DNA from: Chloroflexota bacterium
GTDB taxonomy: Bacteria > Chloroflexota > Anaerolineae > J036 > Brachytrichaceae
Direction: 5' to 3'
Length of the DNA: 64,000 nt
NCBI GenBank assembly: GCA_025354985.1
Contig: JANXLU010000068.1
Coordinates: forward strand, 1-64,000
Shown here: piece by piece, positions 927 to 24,946 of the stretch
How positions within the stretch are numbered: the stretch's first letter is position 1
How the letters are laid out: each line of letters starts with the position of its first letter
Notes under the pieces: generated by a model
Seen by the model: the letters and a program-made list of their open reading frames with translations, nothing else
Database searches by the model: none
Told to the model about the DNA's origin: nothing
Position numbers and translations under genes: made by a program

Positions 927-930
927 TTCG

Positions 931-958: not shown

Positions 959-986
959 GCCCGTTCTCCCGCGCTATAGTCGCAAC

Positions 987-1818: not shown

Positions 1819-2820
1819 ATGTCAAGACCAGTTACATTATTTACCGGGCAGTGGGCGGATATGCCGCTGGAAACTCTGGCGGCCAAAGCCAAATTCTTTG
1901 GCTATGACGGGCTCGAGTTGGCCTGCTGGGGCGACCACTTTGATGTCGAAAAAGCACTGTCCGACGATGCCTATTGCAAAAGCCGCCATGATATATTGGC
2001 AAAACACGGGCTGAAGGTTTGGTCGATAAGTGCCCACTTGCAAGGTCAGGCCGTCTGCGACCGCATCGATGAGCGGCATAAGGCGATTTTGAGCCCGGCA
2101 ATTTGGGGTGATGGCGCACCAGCCGGCGTCAACCGGCGTGCCGCCGAGTTTATGGCCAATGCCGCGCGCGCCGCAGCCAAGCTCGGCGTTAACGTTGTCA
2201 ACGGTTTCACCGGCAGCAGCATTTGGCACCTCGCCTATTCATTTCCGCCGGTGACGCCTGGCATGATAGATGCCGGCTATGCCGAGTTTGCCGATCGCTG
2301 GAACCCAATTCTGGACGTCTTCAAGGCCGAGAAGGTGAATTTCGCGCTTGAGGTTCACCCAACTGAGATCGCGTTTGACATTGCAAGTGCGGAGCGTGCC
2401 TTGGCCGCACTTAAGAACCGCCCGGAATTTGGGTTCAATTACGATCCATCTCACCTGGGTTATCAGGGAGTTGACTACACCTCATTTATCCGCAAGTTTG
2501 CGACACGCATTTACCATGTGCATATGAAGGACGTCTACTGGAGCAAGCGCGGTAAGGAAGCGGGCGTTTTCGGCGGTCACATTTCCTTTGGCGACAATCG
2601 ACGCGTATGGGATTTTCGCAGTCTTGGACACGGACGCATAAATTTTGAAGGAATTGTGCGCGCACTAAACGCCATAGGCTACGAAGGGCCACTGTCCGTG
2701 GAATGGGAGGACAGCGGCATGGATCGTGAACACGGTGCCACCGAGAGCGCTCGTTTTGTTCGAAGGGTCGATTTCAAACCAAGCAATCTTGCCTTCGATG
2801 CCGCATTCGAGCGCAAATAA
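1819..2820 (+). CDS. Sugar phosphate isomerase/epimerase (xylose isomerase-like TIM barrel)
   Basis: [38 protein letters not shown]...[13 protein letters not shown]...[12 protein letters not shown]...HVHMKD. Confidence 0.88.
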
Positions 2821-2836
2821 CGCGGGAAGATAACAC

Positions 2837-4021
2837 ATGGAAGACGTTGGCTTCAACACAATGGCTGGTCCCCGAGCGACCGGCACGGCGCCTGAAATTG
2901 GTGTGGGAATGCTCGGATATGCTTTTATGGGCAAGGCCCACAGCAATGCGCTGAAAAAAATGCCCTACATGATGTACCCGCCAGTCGCCATCCCCAAATT
3001 GGTGGCCATTGCGGGGCGAAATGTTGAAGGCGTGACCGAGGCGGCCCGCCGTTATGGATTCGCAAAGGCATATACAGATTGGCGCCAAATGATCGATGAT
3101 CCGGAAGTTCAAGTCATCGACAACTCGGGCCCAAACAACCTGCACCTGGAGCCCAACCTGGCGGCCCTGAAGGCAGGCAAGCACCTCATAAGCGAGAAGC
3201 CACTCGGGCGCACGGCCGAGGAGTGCCACACCATGTGGGCGGCGGCCAAAAAAGCCAAAGTAGTGCACCAAGTCGCCTTCAACTATCGGTTTGTCCCTGC
3301 GGTCCGCTTGGTGCGTGACCTGATCGATTCCGGAAAGCTTGGACGCATTTATCACTTCCGAGCCAGCTACCTACAAGAGTGGATTGCCGATGAAAACTTC
3401 GCAATGGTGTGGCGATTGGACAAAAAGATTGCCGGCAGTGGAGCGTTGGGCGACCTCGGCTCGCACATCATCGATCTAGCACGGTTTCTGGTCGGCGAGC
3501 CAAAGAGCCTGATGGCCCGAACCGGCACATTTATCAAGGAACGGCCCGGTGCGGGCGGAAAGAAGGAAAAGGTCACGGTCGATGACGCCTTCGAGGCGGT
3601 GGTTGAATATAAAAATGGTGCATTGGGCACGCTGGAGGCGAGCCGCTTTGCACCGGGCCGAAAGAATCACAACACATTTGAAATAAACGCCGAGTTTGGC
3701 AGCGTTCGTTTCAACCTTGAGAACATGAACGTTCTCGAGGTGTTTATGAAGGACCAGGACAAAAACATTCAGGGATTTACCCAGGTGCTGGTAAGTGAGA
3801 GCTATCACCCATTCTGGAAAAACTGGTGGCCCCAGGGCCACATCATCGGCTGGGAGCATACCTTTGTCCATCAGTTTGCCCATTTCTTCGATGCCGTTGT
3901 GAACAAGGCGCCGGTAACGCCAATGGCTGCCGATTTTGAAGACGGTTATCGAAACGCCGTCATTTGCGACGCCATTCTGCAAAGCGCTCAAGAACGCAAA
4001 CAAGTCGATATCAAATATTAG
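2837..4021 (+). CDS. Gfo/Idh/MocA family oxidoreductase
   Basis: GVGMLGYAFMGKAHSNAL Rossmann motif, ISEKPLGRTAEE (EKP), GSGALGDLGSHIIDLARFL. Confidence 0.92.
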   Translation: MEDVGFNTMAGPRATGTAPEIGVGMLGYAFMGKAHSNALKKMPYMMYPPVAIPKLVAIAGRNVEGVTEAARRYGFAKAYTDWRQMIDDPEVQVIDNSGPNNLHLEPNLAALKAGKHLISEKPLGRTAEECHTMWAAAKKAKVVHQVAFNYRFVPAVRLVRDLIDSGKLGRIYHFRASYLQEWIADENFAMVWRLDKKIAGSGALGDLGSHIIDLARFLVGEPKSLMARTGTFIKERPGAGGKKEKVTVDDAFEAVVEYKNGALGTLEASRFAPGRKNHNTFEINAEFGSVRFNLENMNVLEVFMKDQDKNIQGFTQVLVSESYHPFWKNWWPQGHIIGWEHTFVHQFAHFFDAVVNKAPVTPMAADFEDGYRNAVICDAILQSAQERKQVDIKY

Positions 4022-4024: not shown

Positions 4025-7000
4025 GTGCAAATAATCAAATCCAGGCCGGGCCTTTCGCGACCAGGTAGGTGGCGTGCCCCTGTACTGCTGGTCATTTTGG
4101 CGCTCGCCGCAATCGTGCGGTTTACCGGCATCAATTGGGACCAGGGCACCCACGTGCATCCTGACGAGCGATATATGACCTATCTGGCATCGCTCCTGGG
4201 ACTCCCAAATAGCACTTCAGAATATTTTGATTCAGGTTCTTCCAAACTAAACCCATATAACACGAGCTGGGGGCGCAGCTATGTGTACGGCACGGTCCCA
4301 CTTTTTGTCACCCGCTATGCCGCCGCGGCGCTCGAAACATTGTGCGCACCACAGGCGGTTGCCGCGGCCAATACTGTCAATGGACTATTGGGCCAGCCTC
4401 CCGCATCATGCGGTCCACAGGGATTGCATGGCTACGATGTAATCGGGCTGATTGGCCGAGCCTGGTCTGCGTTTTGCGATTGGTTGTGCGTGTTGCTTAT
4501 TTACCTGATGGGGTCCAGATTATTTGGTTGGCGCACTGGCCTTCTCGCCAGCGCACTCCTGGCCCTTGCGGTGCTCCCAATTCAGCTTGCCCATTTTTTT
4601 ACGGTAGATAGCACCGCAAACCTATTTGTCACTCTGACGGTCGGCTCGTGCGTCGGGATCATCTTTGCCACGCGCGCGCGTTGGACATTTCCACGCGTGT
4701 GGCTTTGGTCGCTCCTGTCCGGTGCCTTTTGCGGTCTGGCCATTGCAAGCAAAATAAGTGTGTGGCCGCTCGCACCCTTTATCGTTGTGTGCATACTGGC
4801 GGCCCTGGTCCGCCACCGCTCAAACAACCTCATTACGTTGAGTGTCGCCGTGATTGCGACTCTGCTCGCTGCAACTGCAACGTTTGCAACTTTTCGGGTC
4901 GCCCAACCCTACTCCTTTATCGGAACCAGCGAGTCAGAGTTGCTCGTCACTCTGGAGCGATGCGCCTCGGTTGACGGAGCGCTCGGCAGATTATGCGCCC
5001 TCACTGGACGCCTGCCCGGTGATGTTCGGAGCGTCATTGCTCCAAGTGGCCGCTGGATCGAACAGTTGCTCCTGGCGCAGAACTTTGTTAACGGAACAAT
5101 CGATGCACCATTTGGCATCCAGTGGGCCAATCGAACTCCAATAGTCTTTCCATTGATAAACCTGGTGTTCTGGGGTCTTGGTCTCCCTCTGGGCGTGGCC
5201 GCCGTGCTCGGGGCCTGTTTGGCGGGTGCAAAGGCGATCTCCGGGCGACGATGGTGGGCATATTTGCCGGTAGTACTGTGGGTGGTGCCTTACTTTTTGT
5301 ATCAAAGCACGCAATGGACAAAATCCATGCGCTATTTGCTGCCCATTTATCCCTTCCTATGTCTGCTCGCCGCCCAGTTTATGGTGAAGTTCGCCCGGGA
5401 CCTTCAAAGTGGTGAGCTTACGACGATCTGGTCTGAAGCAAAGCGTGTCGTTTCAATTGGACTCATCCCATTTGTCGTTGTTGCCTCAGGCATGTGGGTG
5501 CTGGCCTTCACCGCGATATACCGCGAACCAAACAGTCGCAGCCAGGCAAGTATTTGGCTCTATCAAAACGTTCCAGACAATGCTGTGGTCGCAAACGAAC
5601 ATTGGGACGAGGCCTTGCCGGTTACACCTGCGGGCTTTGTACCACCCGCTAAAACGTTCCTGCCCCTGTCGTCGAGCAGAGATGGGCTGATGGACGATTA
5701 TGACGAAGACACGCCGCAGAAGCTGGACGCTCTCCTTTCCTGGCTAAATGAGGCGGACTACATTGTCCTAAGCAGTAATCGCCTGTATGGCGCGATGGCG
5801 CGGTTACCACTGCGATTTCCGCTCATGAATGAGTACTACAGGTTGCTCTTTAATGGGCAACTGGGCTTCGATCTGGCCGCTGACTTCAATCCCCTGCCGC
5901 GCCTGGGCCTGCTTCAGTGGGACGACCAGGAGCGCGATCAACCCGTGCTGGCCTACGCCCCGTTGACATCGGGAACAGCGCCAGGAATTCGCGTGCCGTA
6001 TCCTACCGCAGAAGAAGCGTTTAGCGTCTACGACCACGCGCGCGTGCTCATCTTCTCAAAATCACCAAATTTCACGAAGTCAAATGCCCGTGCGCTATTG
6101 GATAAATTTGACTTGACTCGCACCGTGGTTCAGGCGCCGGTAATTGCTGGTGCCGCGCCGCGCGGATTGCTGCTTGATGCCACGTCGCGCCAACAACAAT
6201 CCGAGGGGGGAACCTGGCGCGATCTGTTCCCGAGAAACGCGGTTGTCAATCAAAACCAGCAGATTGCAACACTTGCGTGGATTCTTTTGATTGAGCTACT
6301 GTCAGCGCTGGCTTGGCCGTTCATCGCGCTTGGCGTTGCGCAACGCGTAGAAGCGGGCCAAATCGAACCACGGACTATCGGTCAAAAGCAAAGACCACCA
6401 TCCGCCCACAGCGCGCTGCTCGATACGGGTTGGGCGGTGGCAAAAGTGCTCGGGCTGCTGTGTGTCGCGTGGATGTCATGGCTGCTGGCGAGCACCAAAA
6501 TTTTATCGTTCACCTCGGCTCAGATCTGGTTCGTAACGGTTGTACTAGCCGTGTGTAGTGTTGTCGTGACAGTCAGATTTCGGGATCGGCTGTGGTCACT
6601 TATCAAGCGTCACTTTGTTCCATTGCTGGCAACTGAGGTGGTCTTCTTGCTCGGGTTCGCCTTCTTCCTCTTTGTTCGCAGCCAAAATCCCGACCTCTGG
6701 CATCCTTATATGGGTGGCGAAAAGCCGATGGACTTCGCCTACTTGAACGCGGTTTTGAAGAGCACATATTTCCCTCCGTTCGATCCATGGCATGCCGGCG
6801 GCTATATCAACTACTATTATTTTGGTTGGGTTCTGTTTGGCCTCCCAATCAAAGCGCTCGGAATCGATCCGGCTATTGCCTACAACCTGGCCCTGCCCAC
6901 GATCTATGCGTGCGCATTGACGGGTGCATTCGCTGCCGGGAGCAGTTTGCATCAGGCTATGCTGGCACATTATCGCGACGGGACCGATAAATCCCTTTCA

Positions 7001-8734
7001 TCCGCGCGCTCCCAGTCATTGTTGGCCGGGTTATTTGTCGCGTTGCTCGCCTTGGTCTTGGGCAATATTGATCAAATCACGGTCCTTGGACCGGCCATTC
7101 TCAAGCTTGGTGGCTCGGGGGATGGTTCATTCAGTCCGGGTTCACTATTGGCCGGTCTGGGTGCCTGGCTCGGAGGAGCTGCGTTACCCATCTATAAACT
7201 CCAAAATTATTGGGATGCAACCCGCCTCGATCCCGCCGTTCCCATCGCCGAGTTCCCGCTATTTACTTTTCTCTATGCGGACCTCCATGCGCACATGATG
7301 TCCATGCCGCTCGTGTTCGCAGCACTCAACGTCGCAATCGCGTTTATTAATCGAGCGCGCAATTTGCTGGCGCTCGTCATCGCCAGCTTGATTGTTGGTG
7401 CGCTTGCAGCTACAAACACGTGGGACTATCCAACGATGCTCGCGCTCGTGCTTGCCGCGCTTGTGTTGGGCCATCCCGGGCTTTCCGCCTTAAGCCGACC
7501 AACTGAATTCTTATCCGCGCTGGTTGCCAGCATTCCGTATTTAATTGGGTTTGTTTTGTTATCACGAGCATTTTTCACGCCCTACTATGAGAATTTTGGT
7601 TCCGCTTACAACTCTGTGGACCTATGGCAGGGCGACCGAACACCCATCGTCGCATATCTAAAAATCTATCTGATTTTTGCAATACCAATTGCGGCGCTTT
7701 GGTTGGATGGCGTTTTAGTTTCCCTTGGCAAGGTGGATGGTCACGAAACACCCTGGGCAATCTTTCAATTAGTTGCAGCAACACTTGGTCTCCTCGCCGG
7801 CTTTGCCACCGCCTTGCTCGGAGTGCAAAGCGCGGTGATGTCAATTCCGCTCATAGTTATTGCACTCTGTGGTGTCGTTGGCCCGCGCCAGGCACCTGCC
7901 TCGCGACTACTGTGGTTGATGGCTGCCGGAGCCTTCACGCTCACGCTTGCAGTGGAGTTGGTGACACTCCGGGGCGATATCGGTCGGATGAATACATTGT
8001 TCAAGTTTTACCTGCAGGCATGGATGCTCCTCAGCATCGGCGCAGGCGTTGCAGTCACGCTTTTACTCACCACGAGACGTGTCGCTGCAGATGGTGACCA
8101 AATTCGCGGTGGTGCGTTCATTCGCCCGTTTGTCACGTCATCAATGGTCGCGCTGTTGTTGCTCGCCGCCTTGTATCCCGCGACGGCGCTGCCTGCCAAG
8201 ATGACAGATCGATACACCGACGATGCTCCCCGCGGACTCGACGGCGCTGCGTGGATGCCACGCACCATCCGGCTCGATGGCCCCGATAACGCTCAACGGC
8301 AGTTCTCCCTGCAGCCTGATTATGATGCCATCCGCTGGATGCAGGACAACGTCGACGGTTCGCCGGTGATCATGGAAACCACAACAGGATGGAATTTATA
8401 TCGCTGGGGAAATCGATTCTCGGTCTACACCGGTAATCCTGCTGTCATCGGCTGGAACTGGCATCAACGTCAGCAACACGCCTCCATTCCAGCCGATCTC
8501 GTGCAGCGTCGCGACGATGACGTTACGCTTTTTTATGAAAGCAACAATCCTGCTGAAGCCAGCATCATTTTGCGCCGCTACAATGTCAAATACGTAATTT
8601 CTGGCGCCTTGGAGCGCGCTTATCATGGTGATGAGGTCGGAAGTCGCTTGAACAAACTTGAGTCCACCGGGATGCTCAAGCTCGTATACCAAAATGAAGG
8701 CACGTCGATTTTTGAGGTATTAAACAGTGTTTGA
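4025..8734 (+). CDS. Giant membrane protein: N-terminal GT39-like GT-C half fused to a C-terminal DUF2298 (Chlor_Arch_YYY-type) half
   Basis: GTG start. N-half HVHPDERYM plus many TM segments; C-half GGEKPMDFAYLNAVLKS...GGYINYYYFGW...YADLHAHMMSMPL...MNTLFKFYLQAW...VYTGNPAVIGWNWHQRQQ. Confidence 0.85.
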   Translation: MQIIKSRPGLSRPGRWRAPVLLVILALAAIVRFTGINWDQGTHVHPDERYMTYLASLLGLPNSTSEYFDSGSSKLNPYNTSWGRSYVYGTVPLFVTRYAAAALETLCAPQAVAAANTVNGLLGQPPASCGPQGLHGYDVIGLIGRAWSAFCDWLCVLLIYLMGSRLFGWRTGLLASALLALAVLPIQLAHFFTVDSTANLFVTLTVGSCVGIIFATRARWTFPRVWLWSLLSGAFCGLAIASKISVWPLAPFIVVCILAALVRHRSNNLITLSVAVIATLLAATATFATFRVAQPYSFIGTSESELLVTLERCASVDGALGRLCALTGRLPGDVRSVIAPSGRWIEQLLLAQNFVNGTIDAPFGIQWANRTPIVFPLINLVFWGLGLPLGVAAVLGACLAGAKAISGRRWWAYLPVVLWVVPYFLYQSTQWTKSMRYLLPIYPFLCLLAAQFMVKFARDLQSGELTTIWSEAKRVVSIGLIPFVVVASGMWVLAFTAIYREPNSRSQASIWLYQNVPDNAVVANEHWDEALPVTPAGFVPPAKTFLPLSSSRDGLMDDYDEDTPQKLDALLSWLNEADYIVLSSNRLYGAMARLPLRFPLMNEYYRLLFNGQLGFDLAADFNPLPRLGLLQWDDQERDQPVLAYAPLTSGTAPGIRVPYPTAEEAFSVYDHARVLIFSKSPNFTKSNARALLDKFDLTRTVVQAPVIAGAAPRGLLLDATSRQQQSEGGTWRDLFPRNAVVNQNQQIATLAWILLIELLSALAWPFIALGVAQRVEAGQIEPRTIGQKQRPPSAHSALLDTGWAVAKVLGLLCVAWMSWLLASTKILSFTSAQIWFVTVVLAVCSVVVTVRFRDRLWSLIKRHFVPLLATEVVFLLGFAFFLFVRSQNPDLWHPYMGGEKPMDFAYLNAVLKSTYFPPFDPWHAGGYINYYYFGWVLFGLPIKALGIDPAIAYNLALPTIYACALTGAFAAGSSLHQAMLAHYRDGTDKSLSSARSQSLLAGLFVALLALVLGNIDQITVLGPAILKLGGSGDGSFSPGSLLAGLGAWLGGAALPIYKLQNYWDATRLDPAVPIAEFPLFTFLYADLHAHMMSMPLVFAALNVAIAFINRARNLLALVIASLIVGALAATNTWDYPTMLALVLAALVLGHPGLSALSRPTEFLSALVASIPYLIGFVLLSRAFFTPYYENFGSAYNSVDLWQGDRTPIVAYLKIYLIFAIPIAALWLDGVLVSLGKVDGHETPWAIFQLVAATLGLLAGFATALLGVQSAVMSIPLIVIALCGVVGPRQAPASRLLWLMAAGAFTLTLAVELVTLRGDIGRMNTLFKFYLQAWMLLSIGAGVAVTLLLTTRRVAADGDQIRGGAFIRPFVTSSMVALLLLAALYPATALPAKMTDRYTDDAPRGLDGAAWMPRTIRLDGPDNAQRQFSLQPDYDAIRWMQDNVDGSPVIMETTTGWNLYRWGNRFSVYTGNPAVIGWNWHQRQQHASIPADLVQRRDDDVTLFYESNNPAEASIILRRYNVKYVISGALERAYHGDEVGSRLNKLESTGMLKLVYQNEGTSIFEVLNSV

Positions 8735-11318
8735 AACGGTTATTTGGTATGTCTGGATCCAAGTAATTGCCACGGTTGGCTGGCTTGTATCGCGGTCCTG
8801 GCTCGGTTCACTCCCAAGCAGTGGTTACGGAGCCAGCAAGGCGCTTGGAGTGCTGCTAGTAGGCTACGTTTATTGGGCGGCGATCACGTTCGGGCTGGCG
8901 CGCAACGGTGCCGGAGCGGCGCTGCTTGCCATTGTTGTGATTGCAATGGTTGGCACTTGGCTGCAATCGCGTCACCCGCGTGCGCAACAACAGCCGCTTG
9001 GCATTGCCTTATCCTTTGGCGCTCGAAGCGATGCACTAAGGCGAACGTTTGCACTGAGTCTTACTCCGGCTCAAATGGCGACCGAAGTTGTTTTCGCGGT
9101 TGCATTTATTGCATGCGCAGTTTACCGTTCCTATAATCCGACGATCGACAGCGCGGGTGGCGAAAAATATATGGACTACATGATGTTCAACGCCATACTT
9201 CGCAGTGACACATTTCCGCCCACAGACGCATGGTTGAGCGGTTATGCGATCAGCTACTACTACTTTGGCTATGTTCAGCAAAGCATGATCCAAATGCTGG
9301 CTGGCGTTTCCAGGGGCGTTGCCTTTAACCTTTCCGGGGCTACCACCTTTGCGCTGACGTGTGCGGCAGCCTTTGGCGTTGGTTACGATCTGTGGGCGGC
9401 CCACCTGGCTCGCAACGAACCAGTCCTGGCGCCTTCAGTTGGCGTTCCTCACGCCGCCAGTACGTTTAGCCGTCGGCAAAATTCGCCTATTCTGGCCGGA
9501 CTGCTCACCGCTACCATGTTGGCTTGCATGGGAAATCTCGGTGGCCTTATAGAAAGTGGTCGTTGTTCAGGGGTATTGGGAAAGCCGTTGATGCAGTGGT
9601 TGGACATCAGAAACAAAGCAACGGATCCGATTGAGTGTGCAGGTTTGGTTCCCACCAGGTTCTACTGGTGGTGGGATTGGAGCCGCGTAGTTCATGACCG
9701 CACACCAACGGGCGGGGACCAGGAAGCAATCGCAGAGTTCCCTGCGTTTAGTTTCGCGCTTGGCGACAATCATCCACATGTGATGAACCTGCCATTTGTT
9801 ATCCTTGCCGTTGCAATCGCTTTGGCCCTGTATTTGCGCGAGGATGGCGACCGCTGGCCAAACGTTCCCGCACTTGCAAATGAGAAGCGTGAAATAGAGT
9901 TAACGCCAGCACTTGGGCGCGATATTGGCATGTTCATTTGGCGTTCCTTGCAACCTATTGATGAGCTATTCCTCACATCTGTAATCGTCGGCGCGCTGAG
10001 CTTTATGAACACCTGGGATTTCCCAATATTTGGAGGTCTCGTCCTCGGTGCATCAATTCTTAAACGATGGCTGCGTGCACAATCCACTGCCGGTCCCGTA
10101 ATCTATGCCGGCGTATCTTTTGCACTCGCGTATGCACTGTATTTTCCATGGTACGGAACCTTTGCATCGCAGGCGCGCGGTATCGGTATTAACCTCTTTA
10201 ATGGAACCAGCTTCGTCCAATTCTTTGTACAATTTGCGCCGTTCGTAATTGCCTTGCCTGCGTTCTTATTCCTGACAGCGCGCCGCCAGTCCATGCCAAT
10301 TCTCGCAACGGTCGGGCGGGCGCTGGCGCTGACCGGGTGCGGTCTGGTGCTCATCCTGCTGGGGGCCGCTGGAATTGGATTGTTGTCGCCACAACTGCGC
10401 GGTCTGCTGGAGGAAATGAACCGGACCGGTGCCGTGTTGGGTATACCTCGCGCAACTGCCATTCAGGCAATTGTGGGCCGCCTTGGTCACCTGGCCGAAC
10501 CGCTGTTTCTACTTATGATTGTTGCGGTGACCATCCTTCTACTTTCCACCATTCGTAATAACCGTGGAAACGCCACAAGTTCAACGGCTTCAATCCAGTC
10601 GTTTGTTACCGTGCTATTCGCGATTGGCGCCCTGGTGGCTGGTTCAGTCGAGTTTGTCTTCTTGCTCGATAACTTTGGCACTCGGATGAACTCTATATTC
10701 AAATTTTGGTACATGACATGGAACCTCTGGAGTATTGGATCGGCGTTTGCCGTGATGCTGTTTATCAGCACGCGCAGAGTTGCGTCGGGCGTGGTAACCG
10801 CGGTGATATTGCTGCTGGGCGCGTGTGGCTTGCTCTATCCAATATTTACGGCGCTGTCGCGTACGGGTAACTTTGTCGGGCCGGCCACGCTTGATGGCTC
10901 GGCGTATCTACAGCAATATCACCCAGCTGACGCAAAGACGATCGACTGGTTTAACACCTCGGTCAGCGGTGCACCTGTGGTCGCCGAGGCACCCGCCGAC
11001 AAGGGCGGGAGCTATAAATACGAGGGTCGGATAAGTGCCTTCACCGGATTGCCGACTCCGCTTGGTTGGGGCGGCCATGAAAGCCAGTGGCGTGGAAATT
11101 ATGATGTCCCGGGTCGCCGGGAGCCACAGGTCGAGAGCTTCTTCAACACGACGGACACCGCAGAATATAAACGCCTCGCAACCACACTGGATGTGACGTA
11201 CGTCGTTGTAGGCGATGTCGAGCGCAAGCGCTATGACGCCGCCGGGCTTGAAAAATTTGCCCGGGTTGGCAAAACTGTTTTCGTGTCGGGTGACACGGTT
11301 GTTTATAAAATCAAGTAA
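8727..11318 (+). CDS. DUF2298 (Chlor_Arch_YYY-type) membrane protein
   Basis: GGEKYMDYMMFNAILRS...YAISYYYFGYVQQ...LGDNHPHVMNLPF...MNSIFKFWYMTWNLW; GTG start overlapping the upstream stop by 8 nt. Confidence 0.85.
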   Translation: MFETVIWYVWIQVIATVGWLVSRSWLGSLPSSGYGASKALGVLLVGYVYWAAITFGLARNGAGAALLAIVVIAMVGTWLQSRHPRAQQQPLGIALSFGARSDALRRTFALSLTPAQMATEVVFAVAFIACAVYRSYNPTIDSAGGEKYMDYMMFNAILRSDTFPPTDAWLSGYAISYYYFGYVQQSMIQMLAGVSRGVAFNLSGATTFALTCAAAFGVGYDLWAAHLARNEPVLAPSVGVPHAASTFSRRQNSPILAGLLTATMLACMGNLGGLIESGRCSGVLGKPLMQWLDIRNKATDPIECAGLVPTRFYWWWDWSRVVHDRTPTGGDQEAIAEFPAFSFALGDNHPHVMNLPFVILAVAIALALYLREDGDRWPNVPALANEKREIELTPALGRDIGMFIWRSLQPIDELFLTSVIVGALSFMNTWDFPIFGGLVLGASILKRWLRAQSTAGPVIYAGVSFALAYALYFPWYGTFASQARGIGINLFNGTSFVQFFVQFAPFVIALPAFLFLTARRQSMPILATVGRALALTGCGLVLILLGAAGIGLLSPQLRGLLEEMNRTGAVLGIPRATAIQAIVGRLGHLAEPLFLLMIVAVTILLLSTIRNNRGNATSSTASIQSFVTVLFAIGALVAGSVEFVFLLDNFGTRMNSIFKFWYMTWNLWSIGSAFAVMLFISTRRVASGVVTAVILLLGACGLLYPIFTALSRTGNFVGPATLDGSAYLQQYHPADAKTIDWFNTSVSGAPVVAEAPADKGGSYKYEGRISAFTGLPTPLGWGGHESQWRGNYDVPGRREPQVESFFNTTDTAEYKRLATTLDVTYVVVGDVERKRYDAAGLEKFARVGKTVFVSGDTVVYKIK

Positions 11319-11321
11319 CCC

Positions 11322-14300
11322 ATGGCCACGATCAAGCTCAGCTTCAAACCTCCTGCAATCGCCCTCCCGCGGTTTTCTCCAATTGCAATGGTGGTTTTGT
11401 TTGCAGTTCTAATCGGCGCCGCGCTGCGATTAAATGGATTGCGCTGGGATCAAAACGCACACTACCATCCGGACGAGCGCTTCATTAGCAGTGTCACCGC
11501 TGAGATGAAATGGCCGACTTCCTTTTCACAATGGCTCAACACCCGACAGTCACCAATGAACCCATATTGGAATCTGACTGATAGGCGTGAGCAGGCATTT
11601 GCCTATGGCACGTTGCCGGTGTACCTTACAAAGGCGGTCGGGACCGTCCTCGGTGCTGTCACCGGCGCCAAATGGGACGGATATGACGAGTCCGCGCTCG
11701 TGGGTCGGGCGCTAAGCGGGCTGGCCGATTCAGCTGCGATATTTCTCGTGTTTTTGTTGGGAGCGCGCGTATTCGACCGAAAAGTCGGTGCGATAGCAAG
11801 CGTCCTATATGCGTTTACTGTGCTCAGCATCCAACATTCCCATTTCTACACGACCGACATCACGCTAAACTTCTTCGTGCTACTGACAATATACTGCGCT
11901 GTACGACTAAGTGAATCCGGCAGCCCACGCGCGGCGTTGGCGACTGGAGCTGCGCTGGGAATGGCGCTTGCCAGTAAAACCAGTGGTGCACCGCTTGCCG
12001 CTGTGATACCAGTAGCCCTCGTGCTGTTTGTCGTGCGACGGCACAAGGTCGGTGCTGCGTGGTCATTGGCCGATTTCAGCCCGGTAATACCCACTCTGGT
12101 TCTGGCGACACTGTCGACGCTGGCCTTGTTCTTCGTTTGGGCCCCATATGCGATTTTGGACAGCGCGGCATTCATTCGTAACTTCAAGGAACAGAACGAC
12201 ATTTTGATTAGTGGCGACGCCGATCGGCCATTCACCCGTCAGTATTTTGGTACCGCTCCCTACCTTTATCCCCTGGAGCAAATGGCCCGCTGGAGCCTGG
12301 GCCTACCCTTGGGCGTGATTGCGTATGCCGGCTTCGTCGTCATGGTCATCATTGCGCTGCGCAAACGCGCGTTGGCCCCGGGAAGCGTGCTAATCCTGGC
12401 TTGGATGATCCCGTATTTTCTGATCACCGGGCGTGCATACGCCAAGTTTTTGCGGTATATGCTGCCGCTGTTACCATTGCTTGCGATATGCGCTGCACTG
12501 GCGTTACGCGAGCTTGGCCGTGCGCTGGCACGTGTGCCACATGTGCCACTTGTCCGGTGGGTTTCGCCGGTGCTCACGGCGTTGCTTTTGGTTTCAACGG
12601 CGTGGTGGGCCTTTGCATTTTCGCGAATCTATTCTGAACCGCACACGGCAAACAAGGCCGCCGCATGGATCAATGAAAATATTCCAAAGTCAGCCGCAAT
12701 CGGCATGGAGCACTGGGAAGAGGGGATTGCCGGTTTGGTTGGCTTCCAAAAACCACCGGGGTCCATTCAGCTGCTCAGCTACGACGACGACAGCCCGGCC
12801 AAAATAAATATGTATGCCACCGCGCTGCAACAGAACGACTACATCGCGATGTATAGCAATCGGCTGTATGGCACCGTTCCGCATATACCGGCGCGATACC
12901 CAATGGCGCGCGCGTTCTATGAAAAGTTCTTCAACGGTGAGCTGGGATATGAGCTCGCATATTTCAGCGAGTCCTACCCTCAATTTCTGGGTCTCGCCAT
13001 ATTCGAAGATACCTTCTCCCGCCCGGACCTTCCCCGCCCCGAACCAATCCGTGATTACCACCCGGCCCCGCTCACCATCAACGGCGGCTTTGCCGATGAG
13101 AGTTTCTCCGCCTACGACCACCCACTGGTGATGGTCTTCAAGCGCACCCGCCAGCTAAACCCAGGTGAGCTAAACACATTGCTCAAACCATACCTACCGG
13201 CCCAGCCTTGGAACCCTGCCCTGTCGGCGAACCAACGCGAGCCCCTGCTGACGGCGCAGCAGCGAACTGCCGACATGGCCGGTGGCACGTTCAGCGCGCT
13301 GTTCGATCCGGGTGACCTTGTCAATCAAGTGCCCGTGCTCGCATGGTGGCTGGTCATACAACTGCTAAGTTTCATGGCTTTTCCGTTGGTTGCCATCGCC
13401 TGCAAGCTCATACCTGATCGCGGCTATATTCTTGCGCGCGGTGTTGGATGGCTGGTTCTCGCCTGGCTCGTTTGGTTCCCGGTAAGCCTTGGACTCATAC
13501 CGTACACGCGCTCCACCATCGTTGCGGCAATCGTCGTGATGACCGTAGCGGCGGCAGCCGTCTTCTGGTTGAATCGCAATGACCTAATCCGCTGGATGGC
13601 ATCGCATTGGAAGCTCATTGCACTCGAAGAAGCTCTGTTTACGCTGGCCTTTGTGGCATTCATACTGATTCGGATGGGCAACCCGGACCTGTGGCACCCG
13701 GCGCGCGGCGGAGAGAAACCCATGGACTTTGCTTACCTGATGGCTACCATCAAAAGCACGACTATGCCCCCATTTGACCCATGGTTCGCAGGTGGCTTCA
13801 TAAACTATTACTACTATGGTCAATTTCTGGTCTCGGTCATTGTCAAGCTGACTGGAGTCCTGCCCGAAGTCGCGTATAACCTCGCGATACCAACCCTGTT
13901 TGCGCTCACTTTTACGTTCGTTTTCTCGGTAGCCTCGAACCTGGCGTCACTCAATGGCCGCAAGCAAGCCACAGACCCCGAAAAAACTACCTGGTCGTTC
14001 ATGACAAATCGCTTGGCAATTCTGGCGGGGATTCTCTCCGCACTTTTCGTTACGGTGTTTGGCAACGTGGATGGTGGACTGCGCATTTTCAAGCGACTTG
14101 TATCTATTGGCGGCGCCACCCCCGTTCCGGAAGCCAACATCGGGGCAATGCCATTGGTCACAATGCTGCCTCGCTTCCTGAGCGGTTTGGTAAAAGCCGT
14201 TGCTCAAGGGCAGACCGCGCTTCAAATTCCGCCTGATTGGTATTGGGCTAGCACCCGCCTTTATCCAGGCAGTGGCAGTATTCAAGAGTTTCCATTTTTT

Positions 14301-16112
14301 ACCTTTCTGTATGCCGATCTGCATGCGCACATGATCGCCCTGCCCTTCACCATTCTGGTCCTCAGCCTGGCCCTCGCCATGGCCCTGACGGTTCGTGCAA
14401 ATGAGTCCGTCCGCGATTGGTTTCGACTTCCAACCCTTTCTGTGGCGGCAATCACTGCGATCGCTCTCGGCTCGCTATATCCGATCAACTCATGGGACTA
14501 TCCAACTTATGCGCTGGCAATTGGCGGTGCCATGCTGCTCGGTTGGTGGCACGCTGATCGAACCACGCGCTCGCTGGGTCTCACCCTTGCATCTGGCTTC
14601 GCAATTGCGGCTGCCAGTTTCGCCTTGTATGGGCCATTCCATGCCACCTTTGTCCAGGGCTACACCGGCTTTATCTCACACGATGAGCGCAGCCCGCTAA
14701 CTGGTTACCTAACCATGTTTGGTCTTGCTCTATTCGGGTTGCTCCCTTGGGTCGTTCTCATCCTTCGCAATTGGCTTGCCGGCGCGCGGGCCCAAGACAT
14801 TCGTTCAACCAGCACCACGTTTGCAAGCGCTACAAATCTGCGCACGAGGCTAACCCCTGTAAGGGAGGGAACGGTTGACAAATCGAAGAGCGTATTCCGT
14901 GGCCTCCGCCTGTTGCTTGACCATCCGCAGGAGGCAAACCACATCGTCGCGCTCATGTTTGCACTGCAACAAACTCTATTGCGCTCGCCGTCCTCCACCT
15001 TGGCCTCACTGGAATCGGTTGACCCGATGGCAATTGGTGTGACCGGTCTGTCCGATCAAGAAACGAACGCCATGCAACCCTCCCGAAGCGTTGCCCGGCC
15101 CAATCTGGCAACGCGAATGACGTCCGTGGTTGGCCTGCTTCTCATTGCGCTGGTGGTGGTCAAACTACTTTTTGATGCGTTCGGTGTTGTTGTTCTGCTC
15201 GGCGCGCTTGGCGCCCTGTTAATGACCGCCATTTCAATTACGCGCAAATCGCTGGCGGAATCCTTCCTGTTCGCGGCTGCCGCCCTTGCATTTATCGTTA
15301 CGGCAGGTGTGGATATTTGGTCACTGAAGGGTGACCTCGGTAGGATGAACACGGTATTCAAGTTTTATCTTCAAGCCTGGACGCTATTTGGCATAGCCGC
15401 CGGAGTAGGTGTTGTCAAAGTCTTGGCCGCTCTCCGACCAAAAGTTGCCCAGTCGGATCAAGGCTCGTCCCGAATGCGGCGTACCGCTCTTTCAACGGCC
15501 TGGTGTTTTGGGCTGGCATTGGTCGTGTTGTGTGGGCTGGCCTATCCCATGGCCAGCGTCTATGCCAAAATAAACGATCGCTTTGACGGCACACACGTCC
15601 CGCCAACTTTGGACGGCATGCGCTACTTGACCGAGGCAACCTATGTGGATGAGGCCGAAGTTGCAGGTCAGCGCAAACAAGCGGCTTTAAAGCTCTCGGA
15701 TGACCTGGCCGCAATTCAATGGATTCGCGCCAACCTGCCCGGATCCCCGCTCGTACTGGAAGCGCCAAGCGGCCCGCCACCCCATCCTGGCCTGTACCGG
15801 TGGGGCAACCGGGTGGCGATCTATACAGGCAATCCGACCCTGATCGGTTGGGATTGGCATGAGCGCCAACAACGCCTTGGAACGCCCCAAATCGAGACGC
15901 GTGTAAATGACGTTCTCCAAATCTATACCGGACCTGATCTGGGTCGAACCCGTATGCTGCTATCTGACTATGGCGTAAATTACATCTATCTTGGGGCCGA
16001 GGAGAGGCTGCATTATCCAAGTGCCGAAGCAAAGTTAATAGATATGGGCCAGCGCGGATTGCTGACCAAAATCTATGATGCCAGCAATGTAACCATCTGG
16101 CAGGTCCTGTAA
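11322..16112 (+). CDS. Giant membrane protein: GT39-like GT-C half fused to a DUF2298 half (paralogue of 4025-8734)
   Basis: HYHPDERFISS; GGEKPMDFAYLMATIKS...GGFINYYYYGQ...YADLHAHMIALPF...MNTVFKFYLQAW...IYTGNPTLIGWDWHERQQ. Confidence 0.85.
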   Translation: MATIKLSFKPPAIALPRFSPIAMVVLFAVLIGAALRLNGLRWDQNAHYHPDERFISSVTAEMKWPTSFSQWLNTRQSPMNPYWNLTDRREQAFAYGTLPVYLTKAVGTVLGAVTGAKWDGYDESALVGRALSGLADSAAIFLVFLLGARVFDRKVGAIASVLYAFTVLSIQHSHFYTTDITLNFFVLLTIYCAVRLSESGSPRAALATGAALGMALASKTSGAPLAAVIPVALVLFVVRRHKVGAAWSLADFSPVIPTLVLATLSTLALFFVWAPYAILDSAAFIRNFKEQNDILISGDADRPFTRQYFGTAPYLYPLEQMARWSLGLPLGVIAYAGFVVMVIIALRKRALAPGSVLILAWMIPYFLITGRAYAKFLRYMLPLLPLLAICAALALRELGRALARVPHVPLVRWVSPVLTALLLVSTAWWAFAFSRIYSEPHTANKAAAWINENIPKSAAIGMEHWEEGIAGLVGFQKPPGSIQLLSYDDDSPAKINMYATALQQNDYIAMYSNRLYGTVPHIPARYPMARAFYEKFFNGELGYELAYFSESYPQFLGLAIFEDTFSRPDLPRPEPIRDYHPAPLTINGGFADESFSAYDHPLVMVFKRTRQLNPGELNTLLKPYLPAQPWNPALSANQREPLLTAQQRTADMAGGTFSALFDPGDLVNQVPVLAWWLVIQLLSFMAFPLVAIACKLIPDRGYILARGVGWLVLAWLVWFPVSLGLIPYTRSTIVAAIVVMTVAAAAVFWLNRNDLIRWMASHWKLIALEEALFTLAFVAFILIRMGNPDLWHPARGGEKPMDFAYLMATIKSTTMPPFDPWFAGGFINYYYYGQFLVSVIVKLTGVLPEVAYNLAIPTLFALTFTFVFSVASNLASLNGRKQATDPEKTTWSFMTNRLAILAGILSALFVTVFGNVDGGLRIFKRLVSIGGATPVPEANIGAMPLVTMLPRFLSGLVKAVAQGQTALQIPPDWYWASTRLYPGSGSIQEFPFFTFLYADLHAHMIALPFTILVLSLALAMALTVRANESVRDWFRLPTLSVAAITAIALGSLYPINSWDYPTYALAIGGAMLLGWWHADRTTRSLGLTLASGFAIAAASFALYGPFHATFVQGYTGFISHDERSPLTGYLTMFGLALFGLLPWVVLILRNWLAGARAQDIRSTSTTFASATNLRTRLTPVREGTVDKSKSVFRGLRLLLDHPQEANHIVALMFALQQTLLRSPSSTLASLESVDPMAIGVTGLSDQETNAMQPSRSVARPNLATRMTSVVGLLLIALVVVKLLFDAFGVVVLLGALGALLMTAISITRKSLAESFLFAAAALAFIVTAGVDIWSLKGDLGRMNTVFKFYLQAWTLFGIAAGVGVVKVLAALRPKVAQSDQGSSRMRRTALSTAWCFGLALVVLCGLAYPMASVYAKINDRFDGTHVPPTLDGMRYLTEATYVDEAEVAGQRKQAALKLSDDLAAIQWIRANLPGSPLVLEAPSGPPPHPGLYRWGNRVAIYTGNPTLIGWDWHERQQRLGTPQIETRVNDVLQIYTGPDLGRTRMLLSDYGVNYIYLGAEERLHYPSAEAKLIDMGQRGLLTKIYDASNVTIWQVL

Positions 16113-16113
16113 C

Positions 16114-17319
16114 GTGACGATCAAGCTGCGGAATCCATTCAACCTGCCCTTGCTTCTTGCAGCCCTTGGTTGCATCGGCCTCACTTGGTTTTGGCCCCGG
16201 CTTTTTCCGGGTCTTGCCGCGCTCCGCTGGGCAATTGCGCTGGTATCTATCCTCCTATTTGTATTGAGTTTTTTGAGCAGCCGTCTTGCCGGGTGGCTGG
16301 TGCGCAAACCAGTAATTCTGGCGGGCTACGCCGGCGCAACTTTGATTCGTGTATGGCCTTTGGCGCTGGGTATCGTCGCCTTGCTCGGCGTCGCGCTCTG
16401 GTTTGGCACCCAATCCGGTTCCAACACCGACGATGAACCCGACTTTGTCACTTCGTCTACCGGTGGCGCAGAAATCACAATTCCCTCCGCTGGATCACTC
16501 GAAATCTCTGCAGCATTGACGTTTGGAAAGGAAGGAACCGCTCCGGGCGAATTCCGCGAACCACACGGTATCGCCATCGGCAAGGATGGCACTATCTATG
16601 TTGCTGATACTTTAAACCTGCGCGTCCAAGTTTTTGATCCATCCGGCAAGCCCATCCGCCAAATCACGCGCGGCGCGGAGGCGTTCAAACAACCGTTTGC
16701 CCTTGCCATCACCAATAATGGTGAGTTGTTGGTTTTGGATTCGGAACGTGCCACAATCGAGCGATTTTCATCCGATGGAAAATTACTGTCGAGCTTTGGC
16801 GGTAACCTTGGATTCTATTTCCCACGTGCAATCGCGCTGGATGCCCAGGAAAACATTTATGTGGCCGATACCGGTGGGTCCAAGGTGGTCAAGCTTTCGC
16901 CAACCGGTGAAGCCATGCTCGTTTTCGGAGTCAAAGGCAAAGAGCGCGGCGAATTTACCGAGCCAACTGGCGTGGCAATTTCCCCAAACGGGACAGTGTT
17001 CACCATCGACCCATCCAATCGCAAACTGTCGGCATTTAGCCCGGACGCCACGTTTATCCGTGACACGCCCATCGAGGCTGCCGGCAGTGTCAACGCACCC
17101 AAGCTCGTCCTTGAACCCGGAGGGACGTTGCTTGTAAGCGTGCCTGAACCGCACCTTGTGCGCCGATACAGCGCTTCGCTCAAACCATTGGGCGAGTTCG
17201 GCGGCGGCGGCACCGAACCCGGGCGCTTTCGCTTGCCTACATTCTTGGCCCGCGCGGCAAATGACATTTGGGTTGCCGACACACTCAATCACCGGATTCA
17301 AAAGATCACACCAAAGTAA
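16114..17319 (+). CDS. Membrane-anchored NHL-repeat beta-propeller protein
   Basis: N-terminal TM segments, then repeated GEFREPHGIAIGKDGTIYVADTLNLRVQVFDPSGK / FYFPRAIALDAQENIYVADTGGSKVVKLSPTG / GRFRLPTFLARAANDIWVADTLNHRIQKI. GTG start one base after the upstream stop. Confidence 0.88.
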   Translation: MTIKLRNPFNLPLLLAALGCIGLTWFWPRLFPGLAALRWAIALVSILLFVLSFLSSRLAGWLVRKPVILAGYAGATLIRVWPLALGIVALLGVALWFGTQSGSNTDDEPDFVTSSTGGAEITIPSAGSLEISAALTFGKEGTAPGEFREPHGIAIGKDGTIYVADTLNLRVQVFDPSGKPIRQITRGAEAFKQPFALAITNNGELLVLDSERATIERFSSDGKLLSSFGGNLGFYFPRAIALDAQENIYVADTGGSKVVKLSPTGEAMLVFGVKGKERGEFTEPTGVAISPNGTVFTIDPSNRKLSAFSPDATFIRDTPIEAAGSVNAPKLVLEPGGTLLVSVPEPHLVRRYSASLKPLGEFGGGGTEPGRFRLPTFLARAANDIWVADTLNHRIQKITPK

Positions 17320-17320: not shown

Positions 17321-17887
17321 GTGCCCCACTCCACCGCGCCCACGCGCCCGTGCGTCTTTTTGGATCGGGACGGAACCCTCATTGAGGAACGCCACTATTT
17401 GCACGATCCAGGTCACGTGCACCTTTTGCCGGGCACCGTTTCCGGTCTGCGCCTGCTTGTTGACCATGGTCACCCATTGGTCGTGGTGACCAATCAAGCC
17501 GGGATCGGTCGCAGCCTATACACCGAACATCAAATGCACGCCTGTAATCAGCGAATGGTGGAACTGCTGGCCGCGGCCCATATCGCTCTTGATGGTTTGT
17601 ATTTTTGTCCTCATATCCCATCTGACAATTGCAAGTGCCGCAAACCTGCAATCGGCATGGCCCTCCAAGCGTCGCGAGACTTGGGCGTTACTTTGTCAGG
17701 CGCCTGGGTGATTGGGGACAAGGCACTTGACGTTAATCTGGCCTTAGGTATTGGCGGCCATGGCATCCTCGTGCGCACCGGTTATGGTCAAGACCCGGTT
17801 CAGCAATCACTGTGTGCACCAGAAGCGATTTGCAATGATCTTTATGATGCCGCTTCCTGGATCATCGCACACGAACCACGACCGTAA
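17321..17887 (+). CDS. gmhB: D-glycero-D-manno-heptose 1,7-bisphosphate phosphatase-like HAD phosphatase
   Basis: VFLDRDGTLIEE...VVVTNQAGIGRS...CPHIPSDNCKCRKPAIGMALQA...VIGDKALDVNLA; GTG start. Confidence 0.85.
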   Translation: MPHSTAPTRPCVFLDRDGTLIEERHYLHDPGHVHLLPGTVSGLRLLVDHGHPLVVVTNQAGIGRSLYTEHQMHACNQRMVELLAAAHIALDGLYFCPHIPSDNCKCRKPAIGMALQASRDLGVTLSGAWVIGDKALDVNLALGIGGHGILVRTGYGQDPVQQSLCAPEAICNDLYDAASWIIAHEPRP

Positions 17888-17924: not shown

Positions 17925-19238
17925 ATGACTATCGAAGCAATCATCCTCGCAGGTGGAAAGGGCACGCGTCTTAGCAGCGTTGTTTCTGACCGTCCCAAGC
18001 CCATGGCAATTGTCGCCGGCCGGCCATTTGTAGAATGGCTCGTTTTGCAGCTGCGGTCGCAGGGGGTACACCATATCGTCTTTTGCACTGGTCATCTGGC
18101 AGATCAAATCAAAACCCACTTTGGCAACGGCGCGCGCTGGGGTCTTGAAATATCCTACTCGCACGAGCACGCCCCGCTCGGCACGGGCGGCGCCGCCCGC
18201 CTGGCGATTGATCAGACCAACAGCCCCAACGTGCTGCTGCTCAACGGCGACAGTTATTGCAAGTTTAACTTGGTTGAGCTGCGGCAAGCAGCCGAAATTC
18301 ATTCAAACGCGTGTGTCATGACCGTTTCCAAAGTCCCTGATGCCTCGCGATTTGGCTCCGTTGTTGTTGCGGAACGTGGAATCGTTCAATCGTTTATTGA
18401 AAAGGGTGCGACCAATGGACCCGGATGGATCAACTCAGGTGTTTATCTAGTCAGCCGCTCGATTCTTATGGCGCTGCCCAAGAACCAGCCCATATCGCTG
18501 GAACGCGATGTATTTCCAACGTTGATTAATAACGGGTTGGTAGCGCAATCAAGCACCGGGACCTTTCTTGACATCGGCACACCCGAGTCCTATCAAATCG
18601 CATCATCCTATTTGGAATCGGAGTTCAAATCTTTGATTAATATGCCTGGCCTCGCATCGGATGCTCAACGGGCACGCGCACAGACCCATCTGCGCGAAAC
18701 CGCCAAGCTCATGTCTCAACTAGCCGAGTCGGATCGAACCGATCTTCTTGGTGCCGCAGCGCTTATGGTTGACTGCTTCCGAGCCGGGCGAAAAATACTC
18801 CTGTGTGGCAACGGTGGCAGCGCAGCCGATTGTCAGCACTTTGCCACTGAACTTACTAGTTGCCTCACCCAGGACTTTAAGCGCCCCGGATTGCCGGCCA
18901 TTGCACTTACCACCGATACCTCGTTTATTACTGCCTATGCGAATGATTTTGGTTTCGACGGCATCTTCGAACGCCAGTTGCGCACGCTTGGCGCCGCGGG
19001 TGACGTGTTGATCGGGATCAGCACCAGCGGCAACTCGCGAAACGTGATCGCCGCCGTTACCGCAGCACGTCAATTGGGAATCAAGACCATCGGTCTCCTG
19101 GGCCTCGGCGGCGTGCTCACCAACATGGTCGACCTAGCAGTCGTCGTGCCATCAAACAGCACGCAGATCGTGCAGGAAATCACCCTTGCCTACGAGCACA
19201 TTTTGTGCGACTTAACCGAGCGAATCTTGTTTTTGTAA
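17925..19238 (+). CDS. Bifunctional fusion: sugar nucleotidyltransferase (HddC-like) + SIS-domain sedoheptulose-7-phosphate isomerase (GmhA-like)
   Basis: N: MTIEAIILAGGKGTRLSSVVSDRPKPMAIVAGRPFVEW...LLLNGDSY. C: ILLCGNGGSAADCQHFATEL...IALTTDTSFITAYANDFGF...LIGISTSGNSRNV. Confidence 0.88.
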   Translation: MTIEAIILAGGKGTRLSSVVSDRPKPMAIVAGRPFVEWLVLQLRSQGVHHIVFCTGHLADQIKTHFGNGARWGLEISYSHEHAPLGTGGAARLAIDQTNSPNVLLLNGDSYCKFNLVELRQAAEIHSNACVMTVSKVPDASRFGSVVVAERGIVQSFIEKGATNGPGWINSGVYLVSRSILMALPKNQPISLERDVFPTLINNGLVAQSSTGTFLDIGTPESYQIASSYLESEFKSLINMPGLASDAQRARAQTHLRETAKLMSQLAESDRTDLLGAAALMVDCFRAGRKILLCGNGGSAADCQHFATELTSCLTQDFKRPGLPAIALTTDTSFITAYANDFGFDGIFERQLRTLGAAGDVLIGISTSGNSRNVIAAVTAARQLGIKTIGLLGLGGVLTNMVDLAVVVPSNSTQIVQEITLAYEHILCDLTERILFL

Positions 19239-23150: not shown

Positions 23151-24117
23151 TGTTTTTTGTTACAACCAACTTTATGACCCCTCCATGACCAAATGCTATT
23201 GACAGTACTTCAAGCGGAATGCTTATGATTGCCGCCGGAATCGCGAGCACGATGTTGGCTATGGCTGCTCGCAGCCCGACTTTTCGATGGCCCACTGGCT
23301 GAACCCTTTTTAACATCGCATAAACTACATTCATTTGTCCGGCTGCAATATTGAGAATCGACTGCCACAAACCGTAGTAGCCATATTCAGCCGATCGAGT
23401 AGAGTTACTTTGCACCGCGAATCCCTTACTCCTGAGTACGGTTGCAAGTACGGGTTTGCCAAAATGCCACAAATGTCGAGGCGTATCCAAATGAAACCAT
23501 TTACCCTTCGCCATTCGTGCCTGCCAACTTTCAAAGTTCGGAACTTCAACAAGTAAAATGCCGCCCGGCTTAAGTATTCGATGAACTTCGGCCAGCGTAA
23601 GCATCGGGTCTTGAACATGCTCGAGCACATGGTACATGGTGATCAAGTCGAACGACTCCGCAGCGAATTCACATTGAGTAAGTAACGGATTGGTGAACAC
23701 TTGGATGCCAAGTTTCAGTCGTGCCAAACTGGCCAGTTCCTCAGAGAGCTCAGTGCCAATACACTGCCAACCGCGCTCCTTTAGCATTGACAAAGTTAAT
23801 GCCCGCCCACAGCCAATATCAAGGACGCGGCCGGGTTGTGCAAATAATCTACCAAGCGCATTGGCTCGCCGGGATCGAAAATTGTAAATGGCGCTCTCGA
23901 CAATCGAAGGAAATCGCTGTCCGGACTCACCATAGTACGAAGGGCCGTAATAATCTGCAAGCTCAATGTCCCGATTTTGCAACTCTGTCCATGCGTACTT
24001 GCAATTGCGACATTGCACAATTGGAAAGGTTTCGTTCGAAATATAGTCACAATTCTCAAATAGTGAAACGGGAGCCCCTGCACCGCAATTCGGACAAACA
24101 GTGTCACAGGTACGCAT
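23140..24117 (-). CDS. Class I SAM-dependent methyltransferase with N-terminal zinc-ribbon-like CxxC...CxxC segment
   Basis: CDTVCPNCGAG...VQCRNCKYAW; RVLDIGCGRALTLSMLKERGW; MYHVLEHVQDPMLTLAEVHRILKPGG. Confidence 0.88.
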   Translation of the reverse strand: MRTCDTVCPNCGAGAPVSLFENCDYISNETFPIVQCRNCKYAWTELQNRDIELADYYGPSYYGESGQRFPSIVESAIYNFRSRRANALGRLFAQPGRVLDIGCGRALTLSMLKERGWQCIGTELSEELASLARLKLGIQVFTNPLLTQCEFAAESFDLITMYHVLEHVQDPMLTLAEVHRILKPGGILLVEVPNFESWQARMAKGKWFHLDTPRHLWHFGKPVLATVLRSKGFAVQSNSTRSAEYGYYGLWQSILNIAAGQMNVVYAMLKRVQPVGHRKVGLRAAIANIVLAIPAAIISIPLEVLSIAFGHGGVIKLVVTKNTIE

Positions 24118-24946
24118 CGTACGGCCTCGCACTAGTCGAACTGCCCGCATCTCGGACCACAATCCCACGCAACGCAGACTGGGGATTTAGTCGGCCGGCA
24201 GTGGTTGTTGACAAATAGGCGTCGTGCCGAAACCCACGCTTATTTAACCAAAATTGCACCGCAGTTGTTAGCACGCCAAATCCATATGTGACGCTTCGGC
24301 CAAAGTTTATTGAAGAAGCCTCTGCAAAATATACAGTTGGACATGACAGCTCTCCAATCTTTAGACCGAAAAAAGCACACTGAGCCAACATTTGATTGTC
24401 AAATACAAAATCATCAGAGTTGAATTCAAGCGGAAGTGTTTCAAGTACGTGTCGTGAAAATGCTCTGTAACCCGTATGATACTCAGATACTCGAATACCC
24501 AAAAGCATGTTTTCGATGGCGGTCAAAACTCTATTGGAAACGTACTTCCAAATAGGCATTCCACCTCGAAGCGTATCGTTGCCAAGTATGCGCGATCCTA
24601 GACATACTTCGTAGACCCCTGAGGCGATCATCTGAGCCATAGCTCCACAAAGCTTTGGACTATATTGATAATCAGGGTGGATCATCACCACGATATCCGC
24701 ACCATGTTTAAGAGCTGCCGTATAACAAGTTTTTTGGTTCCCACCATAACCTTGATTCTTCTCGTGCGTGACGACAGTCTGTATTCCGAGTGTTTGCGCC
24801 TGTTGCACTGTGTCGTCCCTACTGCAGTCGTCAACGAGAATAATTTCGTCAATAATTTCATGCGGCAGTTCCTCAAAGGTCTTTTGAAGAGTTTTCCCCG
24901 CGTTATACGCAGGCATTACCACTATAAGCTTTAGTCCGTTGATCAT
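24104..24946 (-). CDS. Glycosyltransferase family 2 (dolichyl-phosphate mannosyltransferase-like)
   Basis: LIVVMPAYNAGKTLQKTFEELPHEIIDEIILVDDCSRDDTVQQA; MIHPDYQY; GSRILG...YHTGYRAFSR. Confidence 0.9.
   Translation of the reverse strand: MINGLKLIVVMPAYNAGKTLQKTFEELPHEIIDEIILVDDCSRDDTVQQAQTLGIQTVVTHEKNQGYGGNQKTCYTAALKHGADIVVMIHPDYQYSPKLCGAMAQMIASGVYEVCLGSRILGNDTLRGGMPIWKYVSNRVLTAIENMLLGIRVSEYHTGYRAFSRHVLETLPLEFNSDDFVFDNQMLAQCAFFGLKIGELSCPTVYFAEASSINFGRSVTYGFGVLTTAVQFWLNKRGFRHDAYLSTTTAGRLNPQSALRGIVVRDAGSSTSARPYDAYL

Follow-up and report, generated by a model that had tools for sequence, protein, structure and literature searches.

DUF2298 proteins of a Chloroflexota gene cassette as candidate membrane glycosyltransferases, and their association with Agl23 and NHL propellers

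GT-C enzymes draw on polyprenyl-phosphate-linked sugars at the outer face of the membrane. The DUF2298 family (Pfam PF10060), which corresponds to Chlor_Arch_YYY (TIGR03662) at NCBI, is described in its NCBI record as a family of unknown function with a single-copy form and a form with two copies plus TPRs, and according to the NCBI family notes TIGR03662 co-occurs with TIGR03663. The latter is the Agl23 family (flippase activity-associated protein), consisting of GT39-like membrane proteins that are the constant genomic partner of DUF2298. The Agl23 of Haloarcula hispanica is reported as a putative hexose-P-dolichol flippase; the purified protein flips lipid-linked oligosaccharides in liposomes, and in yeast lacking rft1 it can replace Rft1 (PMC11182771), a protein whose own role is disputed (PMC11365447). 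Our literature search recovered papers naming DUF2298, none of which addresses its function, in keeping with the remark in an earlier note made from the sequence alone (the original prediction) that no biochemical role is established for it. A GT-C assignment, the fused GT39-like N-terminal half, the link to NHL propellers and the gene order described below were likewise not found in this search.

Here we describe a cassette encoding three DUF2298 proteins (A, B and C) and an NHL propeller protein, in a stretch of 64,000 nt from a Chloroflexota bacterium (GCA_025354985.1, contig JANXLU010000068.1, positions 1-64,000; the window). The window proteins are not members of the Agl23 family. The N-terminal halves of A and C resemble GT39/PMT_2 enzymes of the ArnT- and PMT-like kind, with which they share a DE after the first helix (in the motif HPDER), a match to PMT_2 and Foldseek matches to ArnT and Pmt4; unlike these enzymes, they are fused to a second predicted GT-C module in one chain. 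DUF2298 and its partner families are known and widespread, and it is the variant described here and the associations that are new. With a predicted fold and a constant partner, the function of DUF2298 becomes testable. Agl23 in turn bears on the disputed question of how lipid-linked sugars cross membranes, and a constant partner of predicted GT-C fold suggests that what it does in the cell is best investigated alongside DUF2298.

Organisation of the cassette

The four plus-strand reading frames proposed by the original prediction, with gaps of -8 to +3 nt, were recovered at the same positions (Table 1), the spacing being -8 nt (an overlap) between A and B, +3 between B and C and +1 between C and the NHL gene. 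The GTG starts it had assigned stand for A, B and the NHL gene and fail for C, and its description of three giant proteins suits the two fused chains and not B, which is a normal stand-alone member of the family. Frames that reach 4.8 kb and carry domains with e-values below 1e-94 are no product of chance. A, B and C pass the curated cut-offs of both family profiles across the full domain, with e-values of 6.5e-101, 1.6e-94 and 1.7e-106 for PF10060 in Pfam profile searches, and 499.6, 440.1 and 513.3 bits for TIGR03662 against a cut-off of 300. In A the HPDER motif lies at residue 45 and the DUF2298 module spans residues ~791-1566; in C the corresponding positions are residue 49 and residues ~669-1596. 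The motifs named in the original prediction (HPDER, GGEK, YYY, EFP, DxHxH, NxWD, RMNxxFKF and TGxP) lie where it had placed them, and the equivalents it saw in B are present as GDNHPH and HESQ. The NHL propeller of the fourth protein (e-value 2.2e-29, 100.4 bits against a cut-off of 20) is preceded by three predicted N-terminal TM segments.

Table 1. Genes of the cassette, its surroundings and the contig beyond the window
Feature	Position	Strand	Remarks
SDR, xylose-isomerase-like TIM barrel, Gfo/Idh/MocA (levoglucosan-dehydrogenase-like) genes	918-4021	+	upstream run
Protein A, 1569 aa	4025..8734	+	GTG start; GT39-like N-terminal module, predicted GT-C, fused to DUF2298/Chlor_Arch_YYY module, predicted GT-C
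Protein B, 863 aa	8727..11318	+	GTG start; stand-alone DUF2298 protein, predicted GT-C
Protein C, 1596 aa	11322..16112	+	ATG start; second fused paralogue, GT39-like N-half, predicted GT-C, plus DUF2298
NHL protein, 401 aa	16114..17319	+	GTG start; C-terminal NHL beta-propeller
GmhB-like heptose-bisphosphate phosphatase	17321..17887	+	likely GTG at 17321, past the NHL stop; ORF opens at 17156
HddC-like nucleotidyltransferase fused to GmhA-like isomerase	17925..19238	+	likely ATG at 17925
GT-C (PMT_2)-PA14-NHL fusion, 1264 aa	19356..23150	+	
GT2 like polyprenyl-phospho-sugar synthases/AglJ	24104..24946	-	below curated cut-offs
GT-C (PMT_2) protein, 692 aa	24980-27058	-	
GT-C (PMT_2) protein, 694 aa	27055-29139	-	overlaps the 692-aa gene
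TIGR03663-like protein, 559 aa	contig G000:C45 68798-70477 (L094:5799-7478)		past the window end
Agl23-NHL fusion, 1194 aa	contig G000:C45 70518-74102 (L094:7519-11103)		about 40 nt after the 559-aa gene

The closely packed run of genes on this strand is wider than the cassette and extends from the SDR gene to the end of the GT-C-PA14-NHL fusion. Its upstream part is separated from gene A by 3 nt and may have a sugar-modifying or catabolic role.

Genomic partners of DUF2298

Of the 301 genomes of the phylum that were sampled, 201 (about two thirds) contain DUF2298, and it also occurs in at least two archaea. To characterize its partners we read the stretches around 20 stand-alone DUF2298 loci drawn from 19 families. 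A gene of the Agl23 family (TIGR03663-like) adjoins DUF2298 on the same strand in 17 of these, at a spacing of -278 to 175 nt; the profile threshold used was 60 bits, fused DUF2298 chains scoring at most 32 and other PMT_2 proteins at most 47. An NHL gene lies nearby in 11 of the 20 loci, the propeller being fused to an Agl23 protein, against an expectation of about 0.009 per locus derived from the NHL gene count of 17 genomes; the binomial probability of 4e-18 is to be taken as a guide, the families being only partly independent. In a first count on complete genomes apart from this one, 3 of 17 had an NHL gene no more than about 10 kb from DUF2298. The link between DUF2298 and NHL, including its occurrence outside this locus in 11 of 20 loci from 19 families and in the gene order of two other phyla, agrees with the original prediction and is common, though not universal.

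The usual order in relatives is a fused DUF2298 gene of the A type, a stand-alone gene of the B type, a TIGR03663-like protein of 560-670 aa and then an Agl23 with a C-terminal NHL propeller; all seven of the Agl23-NHL fusions tested exceed the TIGR03663 cut-off. The propeller in DUF2298 loci is mostly a C-terminal domain of Agl23. The loci of FCPU426 (L035) and Methylomirabilis (L074) have DUF2298, Agl23 and then a separate NHL, and that of Goldiibacteriota (L067) has DUF2298 and Agl23 followed by the contig end. At the level of whole genomes, Agl23 scored over the cut-off in 20 of 20 DUF2298-positive genomes versus none of 20 DUF2298-negative ones, a split with a chance probability of 7e-12 if kinship is ignored. 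It was also present in all five genomes behind divergent DUF2298 loci, and in 14 control genomes both families were found in the same two, H. volcanii and M. acetivorans. Neither Agl23 nor NHL was found within the flanks read around C-type fused genes of Dehalococcoidia-like genomes.

No Agl23 gene adjoins the cassette in the window, which, like the absence just described, counts against the explanation proposed below. However, 5-10 kb past the window end the contig carries a TIGR03663-like gene followed by an Agl23-NHL fusion (Table 1), and this pair corresponds to what comes after B in the operon of relatives and is absent there in the cassette. Agl23 is the conserved partner of DUF2298 and the main clue to its function, which the original prediction had overlooked.

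Two further occurrences of the family may be mentioned. A contig labelled Singulisphaera (L068) encodes a 2572-aa protein with two DUF2298 copies that is like the Chloroflexota ones; an error in binning or in naming may account for the label. On a Halarchaeum plasmid (L085:2-1840) a 612-aa frame with DUF2298 similarity (174 bits) sits at the edge of the record and is absent from the plasmid gene table.

Predicted folds of the two halves

An AlphaFold2 model of B, built with 63 DUF2298 domains from the window and named contigs, reached a pLDDT of 87.9 and a pTM of 0.92. Solved structures searched by sequence with DUF2298 gave no match. In a Foldseek search of the PDB with the model, the first nine matches were all GT-C proteins (DPY19, AglB, yeast STT3 and ArnT) with e-values from 2e-6 to 0.05 and a probability of 1.00 at 2e-6, DPY19 being the best; later matches with a probability of at least 0.6 comprised PglB and the C-terminal domains of AglB proteins, and the C-terminal domain of DUF2298 matched the globular domain of AglB-S2. 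The DUF2298 half is thus predicted to adopt a GT-C fold, the one also found in enzymes that glycosylate proteins in human cells, and to share with DPY19 and AglB/STT3/PglB a polytopic core followed by a C-terminal soluble domain. It differs from them in having no significant sequence similarity and no WWDYG motif, and because the TM-scores against GT-C enzymes are low (0.28-0.43) the match is to be read as one of fold and not of a known enzyme.

The N-terminal half of C matches PMT_2 with an e-value of 1e-11 (45.8 bits against the Pfam cut-off of 26.1) and that of A falls just under this cut-off at 25.5 bits; the two are 32% identical in the alignment of the N-halves. A search of solved structures by sequence gave weak matches to STT3 only (e-values 0.03-0.06), and hhalign aligned the N-half with the DUF2298 half over a short stretch at the core end only. 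The AlphaFold2 model of the N-half of C, made with 46 sequences, has a pLDDT of 88.8, and its 33 Foldseek matches with e-values of 0.001 or better are dominated by STT3/AglB/PglB, ALG9/12, Pmt4, ArnT and AftA, so that this half too is a predicted GT-C module. On the strength of the Foldseek matches of both models, the two halves of the fused chains are each predicted to be GT-C, as the original prediction had proposed, with pLDDT values of 88-89; its alternative, a DUF2298 half devoid of this fold, is not what the models gave. We also asked whether the N-half is an Agl23 that has diverged, in which case A and C would be fusions of Agl23 with DUF2298. This was dropped because other PMT_2 proteins, used as a control in the profile comparison, scored better (3e-20) than Agl23 (1.5e-11); against the TIGR03663 cut-off of 126.25 the N-half of C attains 24.1 bits and A gives no match, and neither is a member.

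Polar residues that are invariant in the 63 DUF2298 sequences are E146, the YYYxG at 177-181, R320, E337, D347, H351, N428, R653, N655, H784, R798 and E832. In the alignments, E146 of the GGEK motif is conserved in DUF2298 and HPDE in the N-halves. By a count of helices in the model, three extra N-terminal helices would precede a 13-helix membrane core and the C-terminal domain, and the invariant residues of core and C-terminal domain would all be placed on the same membrane side. This concentration of acidic, histidine and arginine residues on one predicted face looks like the conservation of an enzyme and speaks against the proposal that DUF2298 is a dead or non-enzymatic GT-C relative serving as a flippase or scramblase for lipid-linked sugars in partnership with Agl23. 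The tight pairing of the two genes favors that proposal, as does the flipping of lipid-linked oligosaccharide in liposomes by Agl23, itself of a GT-C/GT39-like family (PMC11182771). However, membrane proteins can show scramblase activity in liposomes as a by-product, as is reported for bacteriorhodopsin (PMC5572738), and we regard the proposal as unlikely. An oligosaccharyltransferase-type enzyme, which would move a whole lipid-linked glycan to protein, would fit the Foldseek matches to AglB and STT3, the likeness to the AglB-S2 globular domain and the 13-helix core suggested by the model. Against it, the WWDYG motif of these enzymes is absent from all 63 DUF2298 sequences, SVSE/TIxE-like motifs are absent from A, B and C, and the top match, DPY19, is a single-sugar transferase; we judge such an enzyme to be quite improbable.

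Paralogue history, proposed function and surrounding glycan genes

A tree of the 63 DUF2298 domains separates stand-alone from fused domains with a support of 0.999, the exception being locus L038, whose stand-alone gene is of the fused kind. B belongs to the stand-alone clade together with Thermoflexia G79 (L064) and locus L033 (support 0.96), C is the sister of Thermoflexus JAD2 (L004; 0.94), and A lies near the fused DUF2298 domains of L064 and L033 with weak local support (0.31). Judged from these sequences, the three window proteins have long been separate paralogues. Relatives commonly carry a fused and then a stand-alone DUF2298 gene (A-B) whose ends overlap or abut, and in Thermoflexus and in REEB501 (L005) the C-type gene runs 4 nt into the NHL gene that follows it. 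Given that the two pairs each occur separately in relatives, the window cassette consists of two known arrangements placed end to end. That it is instead a chance neighborhood of unrelated glycan genes with paralogues arising from recent local duplication is highly implausible. Its three DUF2298 copies, unusual next to the two in each of the other five genomes of the same family, would favor such an origin, but the stand-alone/fused split and the grouping of C with Thermoflexus point to old paralogues, Thermoflexus itself has three copies in two loci (one A-B and one C-NHL pair), and both pairs are conserved with overlapping ends.

Taking the domains, predicted folds, gene order and co-occurrence as observed, we infer catalysis, donor, acceptor, a physical complex and the role of the NHL propeller as follows, and give this reading a probability of roughly two in three. 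The cassette would be a membrane glycosylation set of outward-facing polyprenyl-phospho-sugar glycosyltransferases acting together with Agl23 and an accessory NHL domain. A and C would each hold two GT-C modules (GT39-like and DUF2298) and B a single DUF2298 module. Outside the membrane, each module would accept a sugar from a polyprenyl-phosphate donor and pass it to an acceptor on the outer surface, which may be a glycolipid, a polysaccharide or a protein, so that a two-module chain could make two successive additions. The normal partner of stand-alone DUF2298 would be a GT-C protein of the Agl23 family, and this partner may either deliver (flip) the lipid-linked sugar or use it. The NHL propeller, usually fused to Agl23 and here a separate protein after C, would be an outer-face accessory or acceptor-binding domain, and the GT2 gene on the minus strand (Table 1) could make the polyprenyl-phospho-sugar donors. 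We tentatively put forward a more specific version, which we hold to be less likely than not: DUF2298 and Agl23 might be the halves of an unrecognized membrane machine of bacteria and archaea. One GT-C protein would flip or present the polyprenyl-linked sugar for transfer by the other while an NHL propeller holds the acceptor, and the two-module chains A and C would be single-chain versions of such coupled action.

A stand-alone DUF2298 from a rumen Firmicute is found on plasmid pNP95 of Pseudobutyrivibrio xylanivorans (L084:11938-14193), where its neighbors are wecB, a GT2, an O-antigen ligase and sugar-nucleotide genes, i.e. a surface-polysaccharide locus. This gene set is consistent with a role in the synthesis of surface glycans.

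The heptose genes, which the original prediction had linked to DUF2298, were rejected as part of the system, given that they are not conserved in Thermoflexus and are not general neighbors of DUF2298. In the window, gmhB and the hddC-gmhA fusion sit between the NHL and GT-C-PA14-NHL genes, and in Thermoflexus they are absent from this place; the Thermoflexus counterpart of the latter protein retains PA14 and lacks NHL. In a genome of the same family (G268, contig C30), a 520-aa frame gives a comparable GmhA-type match.

Genes for a methyltransferase, for a GT2 and for a divergent GT4 accompany the two minus-strand GT-C genes, and glycan genes as a whole cover at least the stretch from 4 to 30 kb. 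Farther along the window, a minus-strand gene at 49889-52951 encodes a 1020-aa protein with a weak match to glycosyl hydrolase family 18.
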